A stretch of 64,000 nt of DNA from Olsenella porci (lineage in GTDB: Bacteria; Actinomycetota; Coriobacteriia; Coriobacteriales; Atopobiaceae). The notes under the pieces are model-generated. The model worked only from the letters and a program-made list of their open reading frames with translations. It was not told the origin of the DNA and made no database searches. The translations under genes and the position numbers were made by a program. Every line of letters starts with the position of its first letter. Position 1 is the first letter of the stretch. This document shows positions 34,922 through 39,032 of the stretch, piece by piece. The DNA lies in assembly GCF_009695875.1 (NCBI RefSeq), contig NZ_VUNC01000002.1:62001-126000 (forward strand). The letters are read 5' to 3'.

Positions 34922-35908
34922 CTAACGCCGCCCGCGCCCGCAGACGTCCACCACGAGGGACGTGAACGCGATGCGCGGGTCGGAGCCCCCCTTGAGCGCA
35001 CGCTCACACGCCGCGCAGCGCCTGAGCGCGTCCTCGAGCTCCCCCGGAGCGAAGCCGCGAGCCCAGCGCACGTGGTTCTTGACCTGCCACGACTGCTTAT
35101 GGAGCTCGGAGGCAACCCGCGCGCCCTCCCCACGCACGTCGAGGCACCGAGCGCATACGAGCTCCCGGAGCCGTCCCGTGAGGAGCGAGAGGAGCGCGAT
35201 CTCTGAGGCACCGTTCATGAGCTGGTACAGAGAGAGCGCCTTCCCGGCATCCCTCGCGCAGACGCTGTCGAGGAAGTCCCACGGCTTCACCTCTGCGGTT
35301 CGCGCGACGTTTGCCTCCACGTCCACAAGCCCGATCTGCCCTGAACCCCTGCATAGGTCTGCCAGCGACCTCACCTGGCGGTCGAGCATGGTCGTGGACT
35401 CGCCCACCCTCGAGATGAGCTCCGTCGCCGCGGCCTCCGTCATGGTCGCCCCATAGTGCGCCGCCATGCGCACGACGGTCTTGGAGAGCTCCCAGCGCTT
35501 CTTGGGCGCGCAGTCGATGACCGAGTGCGGCCCTACCTTTGCCACCGCCTTGTAGAGCCTGGTCGACTTGGCGAGGGATGCCGCGTCCAAGAGGAGGACG
35601 CAGCCGGGGTTGGGGTTGCCCAGGTAGGCGATGATGGCCTCGGAGACGGGTTTGGGCAGACGCTCCGCGCCATGGACCAGCACAAGGCGAAAGCCGTCCC
35701 CCACCGGTATGGTGTTGAGAGAGGTCACGAGGTCGCCCGGCTGCATGTCCGCGTTTGCCTCGCGCTCGTCCAGGTTGAAGGCGGCAAGCCCCGGCGAGAG
35801 TCTGGCCTTCATGCGCGAAACGGCCGTCTCCCGCTTGAGCTCGTCCCCGCCAACCGCCAGATAGGCAGGCAGAAGCCCGGAGGCCCCCTGTCCTCTCCCC
35901 TGAGTCAT
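34922..35908 (-). CDS. holA: DNA polymerase III subunit delta
   Basis: Clamp-loader delta subunit that opens the beta clamp. The 328 residues match the HolA layout: an AAA+-like N-terminal part with YLAVGGDELKRE (ligand-proximal strand) and FRLVLVHGAERLPKPV, the linker helical domain, and a C-terminal collar domain containing KNHVRWARGFAPGELEDAL. The ATG at 35906-35908 was chosen because GAGGAG stands four bases upstream; an in-frame ATG eight codons earlier has no such site. It directly follows comEC, the comEC-holA order conserved in Firmicutes. The likely comEC stop overlaps its ATG (ATGA). Confidence 0.93.
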   Translation of the reverse strand: MTQGRGQGASGLLPAYLAVGGDELKRETAVSRMKARLSPGLAAFNLDEREANADMQPGDLVTSLNTIPVGDGFRLVLVHGAERLPKPVSEAIIAYLGNPNPGCVLLLDAASLAKSTRLYKAVAKVGPHSVIDCAPKKRWELSKTVVRMAAHYGATMTEAAATELISRVGESTTMLDRQVRSLADLCRGSGQIGLVDVEANVARTAEVKPWDFLDSVCARDAGKALSLYQLMNGASEIALLSLLTGRLRELVCARCLDVRGEGARVASELHKQSWQVKNHVRWARGFAPGELEDALRRCAACERALKGGSDPRIAFTSLVVDVCGRGRR

Positions 35909-36488
35909 GCGTCTCCTCTCCGTGATCCCCACTCATCGTAGCGCAAGCCCACCGCAGCCCAGCATCTCCTGGCAAACCCGCGCGTCGGGAGGCTGACACC
36001 CTGGGGCCAAGCACGCCTGGCTCAACCGTCACCGTACCGACGTCCTTGGTGCACAGGAAGGCGGCTCCCTCCCCCTTGCAAACCAAGACGCACTCGGGGG
36101 ACGGGTGCCCGTACTCGTTGCCCTCTCCAGCGCTGGCAACGCACAAGGCGGGGCTCAGGCGCCTGGCGAGGGGCGTGTCGAGCGACTCCTTGGAGCCATG
36201 GTGCCCCAGCTTGAGGAGGTCGACGGGACCGATTCCCACGGCCTCGGCCGCACGTGCCAGTTCCTCGCGCTCCGCGTCCCCCGTGAGGAGCCCCGAGAGC
36301 CTGTGCCTGCCATCGGAGAACGTGAGGTGCAACACGACGGAGTCCTCGTTCTCGTCTCCCCCTCGGGGACAGTCAGGCCAAATGACCCGAAGCGAGAACC
36401 TCCCGACGCGCATCACGTCTCCCCTGCGGATTTCGCGGCAGTTGCCTCCCGTCAGAAGTCTTGTGGCATCCCCAAGCTCGGGGGGACG
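35905..36488 (-). pseudogene. comEC: comEC 3' part, out of frame (rest of metallo-hydrolase domain)
   Basis: The remainder of the ComEC extracellular metallo-beta-lactamase-like domain, read one base back (-1) relative to the first part. Reading from the C-run at 36480-36485, it gives PPELGDATRLLTGGN, GDVMRVGRFSLRVIWPD, SGLLTGDAEREEL and LKLGHHGSKESLDTPLARRL. It ends near CTKDVGTVTVEPGVLG. This frame then runs on without a stop deep into holA, which is not credible. A second -1 shift near the G4 run at 36003-36006 would give a short end, ...VGLRYDEW..., stopping at 35905-35907 over the holA ATG. GC-rich third positions favour that last frame. Either two under-called homopolymer bases or a genuinely inactivated gene would explain this. 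Confidence 0.7.
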
Positions 36489-38359
36489 TTGCCAGAGGCC
36501 CCCTGTCCCACGAGCACCGAACCCACAGGGATGCACCCCACAAGGGACCGGACACCGCCGTAGTGGTCGTCGTGCAGATGCGTGACCACCACCGCATCGA
36601 GCCTCCTCACATTGAGCCTTGCGAGCTCACGGGCGCAGGAGTCGTCTGCCGGACCGGCGTCGACGAGGACGGCGGACCTGCCGTCCTGCACCAGGACGGC
36701 ATCCCCCTGCCCGACGTCGAGAACGCACACGCGTGGTCCCTGGAGCACCCCGGCGCAGAGGGTGAGTACGACCGGCACGCCGAGCGAGAGTGCCATGAAG
36801 GCACGAAGCGTGCGACGGCTTGGATGCGGCCAGAAGGCAAGAACCAACGCGAGGGGGACCATCGCGGCAAGGAAGCCCCAGGGCCCGCCCATGAGTGTCC
36901 GAGACGTCCAGGGAAGGCCGGCCAGCAAGGTGAGCACGCGCCCAAATGCCCCTGCCAGCGCATCGAGAGCGAGACCGAGGGCACGCATCCCAAGGCCAAC
37001 GTTAGAGAGGAGCGCATGCGCCAGCCCCACCGGAATCATCGCGTAGGCAATCGGAGACAAGAGCACGCTGGCAAACGGACCCAGCAGGGGCAGTCTCCCA
37101 AATGCGACGGTGGAGATGGGAAGCGTCGCCGCCTGCGCCGCAAGTGACGCTGCAAGGGCATCCACGAGCGCCCCTCCGCAGTGCAGTGCCCGCCTGCCCG
37201 CCGCCCTCCGCACGAGCAGACGCTCGAGGTGCGGCAGCCGCAGCGCCGTCCCCAACGCCCAGGAGAGGTACCGGCTCAGGGCGCACAGGCCGAGCACGGA
37301 GCTCACGGAGAGGAGGAATCCAAGGTCACAGGAAAGGTGCGGGTCTGCCATCGCCATGCAGAGCGCCACGACGCCGGCGGAACTGGCCGAGTGGGCGCGT
37401 CTGCCGGCAAGCTGCGACCCCATTGCGACGAGAGACATGAGCCAGGCGCGGACGGCAGAGACGGGCGACCCACACAGCAGCACGAAGATACCGGACAACG
37501 AGGCGAGCAGGGCAATCCGCGACGGGGGCCGAAGCGCGGTACGTCCCAACGCACCAGCGATGATCCCCGTGACGATGGAGAGGTGACTCCCCGACACGGC
37601 AACCAGGTGCGCGACCCCGCACAGCTTGATGAGCTCGTACGAGGGGTCTCCCATCAAGGCGGTTCGATACCCGCAGCACACGCCGGCGACAAGGGCGCGC
37701 TCCGGAGACGAGCCTGGGTCCAGAGCCCCGACGAGGGCCTCCCGAAGCCGGAGGACCGGACCGAGCGCGCCCCCCGGGCGAGAGGAGCCGCGGACGTGCG
37801 AGACGCTCACGGAGGCGACGATTCCCCTGGCCCTGCACGAGATGGCGAAGTCGTCGTCCCCCAGCTCTCGCAGCCGTCCCACGCACGAGACGGTATGCCC
37901 CAAACTCAGCTCCTCCCGCGTGCTGAGGTACACGTCGGCAATTCGCCTGTCATCCAGGCTCGCCTCCGCCCTGGTGAGGAACCCGCGGCGGGTGGGATGG
38001 GAGTCCTCGACGGTCCGGAGCTCAAGCGACGAGACGGGGACGGATGACAGGGCCTCGAGCCCTCTCCTCCCCTCCGCCAGGGAGCCACAGGCAGCGAGTC
38101 CCCCAAGGGAGGCAACCGCGACCAGAACGCAGGGCCAGACGAGAGCCCGCCCCAGCCCCCTCCCCCTCCGCAGCAGCAAGACACCTGCAGACAGCACAAG
38201 GAGCGGGACAAGGAATGTCCTGGTCCCCGGCCCGGATGGCAGCCTGCCCGTGAGGACGGCCCTCTCCGCAAGGATGGCACAGACCAGGGGAGGGATCGTG
38301 ACGGGAAGGTGGGGGCGATCGGGAAAGCGCTCCCCAGACGCACCGCCGCGGCTAGACAC
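36452..38359 (-). CDS. comEC: Competence protein ComEC, N-terminal part (frameshifted gene)
   Basis: ComEC is the membrane channel for single-stranded DNA uptake in transformation. The 635 residues in this frame contain the N-terminal helices, the DUF4131-type domain, and the Competence core (RALVAGVCCGYRTAL, CGVAHLVAVSGSHLSIVTG, many transmembrane helices). They end with the start of the metallo-hydrolase domain, VCVLDVGQGDAVLVQDG and the metal motif THLHDDHYGG. Translation then stops early, 28 bases after a run of six C (36480-36485). Adding one C joins it in frame to the rest of the domain. The start is a GTG overlapping the comEA stop; other starts nearby are possible. The gene lies between comEA and holA. 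Without repair it lacks the second half of the hydrolase domain. Confidence 0.85.
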   Translation of the reverse strand: MSSRGGASGERFPDRPHLPVTIPPLVCAILAERAVLTGRLPSGPGTRTFLVPLLVLSAGVLLLRRGRGLGRALVWPCVLVAVASLGGLAACGSLAEGRRGLEALSSVPVSSLELRTVEDSHPTRRGFLTRAEASLDDRRIADVYLSTREELSLGHTVSCVGRLRELGDDDFAISCRARGIVASVSVSHVRGSSRPGGALGPVLRLREALVGALDPGSSPERALVAGVCCGYRTALMGDPSYELIKLCGVAHLVAVSGSHLSIVTGIIAGALGRTALRPPSRIALLASLSGIFVLLCGSPVSAVRAWLMSLVAMGSQLAGRRAHSASSAGVVALCMAMADPHLSCDLGFLLSVSSVLGLCALSRYLSWALGTALRLPHLERLLVRRAAGRRALHCGGALVDALAASLAAQAATLPISTVAFGRLPLLGPFASVLLSPIAYAMIPVGLAHALLSNVGLGMRALGLALDALAGAFGRVLTLLAGLPWTSRTLMGGPWGFLAAMVPLALVLAFWPHPSRRTLRAFMALSLGVPVVLTLCAGVLQGPRVCVLDVGQGDAVLVQDGRSAVLVDAGPADDSCARELARLNVRRLDAVVVTHLHDDHYGGVRSLVGCIPVGSVLVGQGASGNVPPSLGMPQDF

Positions 38360-39032
38360 AGATGCCGTCACGGATCTTCTCGAACTTCTTCTCGCCAATC
38401 CCAGAGACGCGCATGATGTCCTCGGGAGAGGTGAACGGCCCGTGGTCCTCGCGCTCACGAATGATGGAGGCGGCGGTGGCATCCCCCACGCCAGGGAGAG
38501 TCTTGAGCTCGTCCGCCCCTGCCGTGTTGATGTTGACGGGCCCGGCAGCGGCGCCTCCCCCACCGGTCGAGGACTGTGCCGTCTGCGCGGGCGCCTCCCC
38601 CGTATGGGGGACGTGGACCTTGCTCCCATCGGTGACAGCCTGCGCAAGGTTGAGGCTGGTCGTGTCGGCATCCTCCGTCAACCCACCTGCGGCCTCGATG
38701 GCGTCACGGGCACGCGGAGTGACGCCGCGCAGCTCGTAGACCCCTGGGTTTGCGACGGCACCGTCCACGTGCACCACGACGGGGGCGGGATTTGCCGTCA
38801 CGGACGACCCAGGATCGGAGTCTCCTTGAGCCCCAACGCCCGATGCATCCTCCACAATTCCCGAATCTCCTTCGTCGCGAACGAGCTCCACGCCGCCTCC
38901 CCCCTGAGCGCGGAGCGCGCCGAACGCAAAAGCCGCCACGGCAAGGACAAGGCAGGCTATGCCAAGCCGAACCGGGAGTGCTCCCCCGGGGCACCTCCCT
39001 CTCCCTCGCCTGCCCACCATGCGCTGTGCCAT
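38352..39032 (-). CDS. comEA: Competence protein ComEA (DNA receptor)
   Basis: Membrane-anchored double-stranded DNA-binding protein of the transformation machinery. The 226 residues have a basic N terminus, one transmembrane helix (about 21-42) and an acidic spacer. An SLBB domain follows (VVVHVDGAVANPGVYEL...). A glycine/alanine hinge leads to the C-terminal helix-hairpin-helix pair VNINTAGADELKTLPGVGDATAASI and SPEDIMRVSGIGEKKFEKI. Both HhH motifs are intact. The ATG follows a GAGGGGG stretch. It is the first gene of comEA-comEC-holA. The late-competence pilus genes are not in this window. Confidence 0.93.
   Translation of the reverse strand: MAQRMVGRRGRGRCPGGALPVRLGIACLVLAVAAFAFGALRAQGGGGVELVRDEGDSGIVEDASGVGAQGDSDPGSSVTANPAPVVVHVDGAVANPGVYELRGVTPRARDAIEAAGGLTEDADTTSLNLAQAVTDGSKVHVPHTGEAPAQTAQSSTGGGGAAAGPVNINTAGADELKTLPGVGDATAASIIREREDHGPFTSPEDIMRVSGIGEKKFEKIRDGICV

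Follow-up and report, generated by a model that had tools for sequence, protein, structure and literature searches.

The window examined here is a 64,000-nucleotide stretch of the Olsenella porci genome, a gut-type actinobacterial genome, and one of the loci on its minus strand, running from about 38360 to 36005, encodes the DNA uptake protein ComEC. It holds the only gene with a Competence domain that a search of the genome recovered. Its coding sequence, however, is distributed over two reading frames, which meet at a short run of C. The features of the locus, in the direction of transcription, are as follows:

38352..39032, minus strand: comEA, intact, directly upstream of comEC and overlapping its start (TIGR01259, E 5e-31; SLBB and HHH_3 domains)
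36452..38360, minus strand: upstream part of comEC, which a premature TGA closes after the channel (Competence) domain and the first half of the nuclease domain (metallo-beta-lactamase-like); 38360 is an approximate 5' end
36452..36536, minus strand: overlap of the two frames, bounded by the first frame's premature stop and the second frame's earliest in-frame GTG, containing the true frame change
36480..36485, minus strand: six consecutive C (plus strand: G6), the site of the frame change, with one base fewer than in relatives
36005..36485, minus strand: downstream part of comEC in the -1 frame, with the second half of the nuclease domain and the motifs LLTGDAE and GHHGSKES
34922..35932, minus strand: holA (DNA polymerase III delta), the next gene downstream (PF21694, E 8e-11)

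The upstream part matches the Pfam families PF03772 (Competence channel; E 8.9e-35, above the cut-off) and PF00753 (E 2e-12). On the ComEC/Rec2 profile TIGR00361 the two parts occupy consecutive segments, positions 108-519 and 533-647, with scores of 85.9 and 60.6 bits, neither of which reaches the curated cut-off of 190 for the whole protein. The second part also matches the solved ComEC structures 9vc6, 9ic4 and 30bt, with which its TGD aspartate and GHHGS segment align. The locus resembles that of a DCL-type ComEC/Rec2, the type of Bacillus subtilis and related Coriobacteriia, in which an OB fold, a channel and a metallo-beta-lactamase-like nuclease are combined: comEA and holA adjoin it, the channel domain is present and every nuclease motif is encoded. 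It differs in that the reading frame is broken within the nuclease domain, so that this domain is split across two frames rather than being complete on one polypeptide.

Position of the frame break and identity of the missing base

Where exactly does the frame change? An earlier note on this DNA had described a first frame that carries ComEC through the metal motif THLHDDHYGG and stops at 36452, and a continuation that is open in the -1 frame. Both were recovered: the minus strand reads THLHDDHYGGVRSLVGCIPVGSVLVGQGASGNVPPSLGMPQDF followed by a stop codon at 36454-36452, and the -1 frame carries PPELGDATRLLTGGN, GDVMRVGRFSLRVIWPD, GHHGSKESLD and VEPGVLGPR in this order, the remainder of the protein extending from PPELGD to VEPGVLGPR and ending near 36005. 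The run of six C that had been placed at 36480-36485 is also there, as GGGGGG on the plus strand, and its description as C-CCC-CCG is correct, the in-frame codons being GTC CCC CCG. Two independent lines of evidence place the break at this run. A coding-frame Markov model trained on the genome, with no homology input, puts the switch at 36484/36485, assigning 36485-38360 to the first frame and 36009-36484 to the second, and in the protein alignment with relatives the switch falls on the column where they read V-P-P-E-L-G. The frame break is therefore real in the sequence as given, and the gene is otherwise in good order. A general filter for frame switches was less sensitive at this locus: under two settings the break in comEC was masked, by a looser rule for start codons or by a non-coding gap, and escaped flagging, and another setting flagged it among many ordinary gene boundaries in a list that was sorted by eye.

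The proposal that a single added C joins the two frames holds for the place, and C is a likely rather than a proven identity for the base: the missing base is the third position of a proline codon, so that any of the four bases restores the same protein. Since CCC is used in 13 of the 23 CCC-CCN-G contexts of the genome, the event is likely to have been the shortening of a run of seven C by one, with loss of another base being possible. In the closest textual match among the relatives, L005/L040 (VPPELGDA), the corresponding codons are gtc ccc cca gag, which also make a run of six C, and the gene is intact.

Conservation of both parts and age of the lesion

The alignment with related comEC genes that had been suggested earlier covered 56 loci, with 47 distinct sequences among the closest. 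The frame break occurs in none of them: both parts are read in one frame, with no stop in between, at 56/56 loci. Stops listed inside many relatives were disregarded, as the query starts in the overlap with comEA; from the comEC start on, none was counted. The two halves have been kept about as well as in these intact genes. Where at least 90% of the relatives agree on a residue, the window retains 74 of 79 columns upstream of the break and 44 of 46 downstream, the relatives themselves retaining a mean of 95.9% (minimum 85%) and 97.5% (minimum 87%), respectively. Upstream of the break the window is 37.6% identical to the relatives, which are 40.1% identical among themselves; downstream the two values are 48.7% and 51.8%, and the G+C content by codon position is normal on both sides of the break, as in a working gene. 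Retention of conserved residues on both sides of the break, at the level seen in intact relatives, marks the lesion as recent. The locus has the features of a recent pseudogene, namely intact relatives, a single lesion and no further decay. It likewise resembles the isolated frameshifted genes (singleton fs-genes) that have been attributed to indel mutation or sequencing error (PMC3711429), with a single break, strong flanking homology and absence from relatives, and no difference from that class was found.

How reliable is the surrounding assembly at such sites? Of the 121 coding G/C runs of at least six bases counted in 624 kb of the genome, only the one in comEC breaks its frame (1/121); runs of seven occur three times in coding sequence, each time in frame. 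A list of within-gene frame breaks in the genome sample, sorted by eye, contains five, at comEC, C8:50348, C8:695, C8:3248 and C8:4465, and 400 kb of a single-contig relative used as a control contain three or four. The assembly is thus not unusually error-prone, and since a single coding run of at least six among 121 breaks the frame and the runs of seven do not, systematic under-calling of homopolymers is not evident.

Of the other four sites, C8:50348 (L085, base 10348) lies in a gene for a Crp/Fnr-type regulator, as named by eye, and not at a homopolymer. C8:695 (L083) is near a contig end, in a repeat-rich protein that looks by eye like an InlB-type surface protein. C8:3248 and C8:4465 (both L083) are frame changes within IS3-like transposase genes, also named by eye; in IS3 elements, frame changes inside transposase genes can be programmed. 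The 5.3-kb contig C2 (L091) holds 19 G/C runs of at least six, far denser than the remaining genome.

Competing explanations of the break

We consider it most likely that a recent one-base deletion lies behind the break, with a base-calling error ranked second; we take this to be an ordinary disrupted gene and not a new way of reading genes. The first of these, to which we give a probability of about 57%, is that a single base was lost from a recently functional comEC, in the strain or in the cell line that was sequenced. Replication slippage in the short C run would probably have dropped the base, and the slip would have been left uncorrected. All analysed Coriobacteriia have been reported to lack MutS and NucS (PMC5290159), and the genome search agrees: neither has a match in the Olsenella porci genome, and no MutS above the cut-off was found in 81 genomes of the family (Olsenella porci and 80 others). 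As mismatch repair is absent in the class, uncorrected one-base slips in short runs are to be expected. The product would be a truncated ComEC that has its membrane channel complete and stops inside the nuclease domain, after the first metal-binding motif; the remainder of that domain, to which the TGD aspartate and GHHGS segment belong, would be gone. Counted against a lasting loss is the apparently intact state of comEA, dprA and the Tad pilus locus, there being no wider decay of competence genes.

Of the explanations offered earlier, a one-base deletion and a base-calling error both fit, and programmed slippage and phase variation found no support. That comEC is intact in the cell and lost one base of the short C run only in base calling or assembly is a real, if clearly less probable, possibility. 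The site is a homopolymer, neither part of the gene has decayed, and the adjoining competence genes are intact; moreover, a survey of isolated frame breaks with good homology expects sequencing errors among them more often than mutations (PMC3711429). Against this, run lengths in the window resemble those of relatives, with G/C runs of at least seven equally rare in both, the 120 other coding G/C runs of at least six are in frame, and the few other frame breaks include none at a long run. A lone base-calling error would leave the same picture as a deletion. Phase variation, in which frequent changes in the length of the C run would switch full-length ComEC on and off within the population, is improbable even though the run lies exactly where the frame breaks and the class lacks mismatch repair: phase-variable tracts are usually longer than six C, a run of C stands at the equivalent place only in L005/L040, where it is in frame, and coding runs of seven exist that are in frame as well. 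If ribosomes were programmed to shift by -1 on C-CCC-CCG, or if transcripts slipped there, a short ComEC would be made alongside the full-length one, and the heptamer does follow the general scheme X-XXY-YYZ in the correct frame. But the break is seen in 0/56 relatives, which do not conserve the site either; folding of the 100 bases downstream is no better than that of shuffled sequences (z = 0.45) and gives no sign of a stimulatory RNA structure there; C/G slip sites are poor in bacteria; and a literature search returned no paper joining comEC with the phrase programmed frameshift. For want of conservation among the 56 loci and of downstream structure we rejected this mechanism, which we regard as highly improbable. 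It is similarly hard to credit, if marginally less so, that the C run acts as a switch of either sort, whether by changing its length or by slipping while it is read, between a channel-only and a channel-plus-nuclease ComEC and so tunes DNA uptake within the population.

Could the gene instead have split naturally, either into two proteins that jointly form ComEC or into a channel-only ComEC, the remaining sequence being a relic? The nuclease domain is missing from about half of ComEC proteins (PMC6299819, PMC8579336), and channel-only comEC genes, all without a nuclease domain, occur in three genomes of the family:

L142:2556-4145, minus strand: channel-only comEC
L143:2023-3663, minus strand: channel-only comEC
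L144:1556-3649, minus strand: channel-only comEC

These genes are of the known channel-only type (PMC6299819). The first-frame product of the window resembles this type (C/DC types, PMC6299819) in that it would keep the whole channel. However, the natural genes end at the domain boundary and not within the nuclease fold, whereas the window retains one half of the nuclease domain on the first-frame product and the other half, still fully conserved, in the DNA. A separate hydrolase gene was not found near the comEC genes of L142, L143 or L144; in L143 and L144 the gene that follows is a holA-like frame. According to the earlier note, a natural split would show in homologues that terminate at this very stop and are followed by an independent hydrolase gene; such an arrangement was looked for and is present at none of the 56 related loci. 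In none of the relatives do the two parts form separate frames, and with 56/56 loci reading both in one frame we rejected a natural split, the least probable of all the explanations considered.

Expected consequences for DNA uptake

If the deletion is genuine, natural transformation would be expected to be lost or strongly reduced. Loss of comEC abolishes transformation in B. subtilis (PMC8579336) and in Micrococcus luteus (PMC4322843). Damage to the nuclease domain alone is also costly: mutation of most of its metal ligands lowers transformation of B. subtilis 10- to 100-fold (PMC8579336) and all but abolishes the activity of the isolated domain in vitro (PMC12455585). The other candidate uptake genes of the genome, comEA, dprA and a Tad/Flp pilus locus, look intact. 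It is on this combination, including the Tad pilus, that transformation of M. luteus depends (PMC4322843). Besides the Tad one, no secretion-type pilus ATPase was found. A literature search found no paper on comEC in Olsenella.

What the break means accordingly differs between the two leading explanations. A sequencing error would call for a correction to the record only, and either way the locus tells nothing new on how genes are read. With a real mutation, the strain has probably lost transformation, or most of it, while keeping comEA, dprA and the Tad pilus, and it would provide a naturally broken strain for comparison with its intact relatives.
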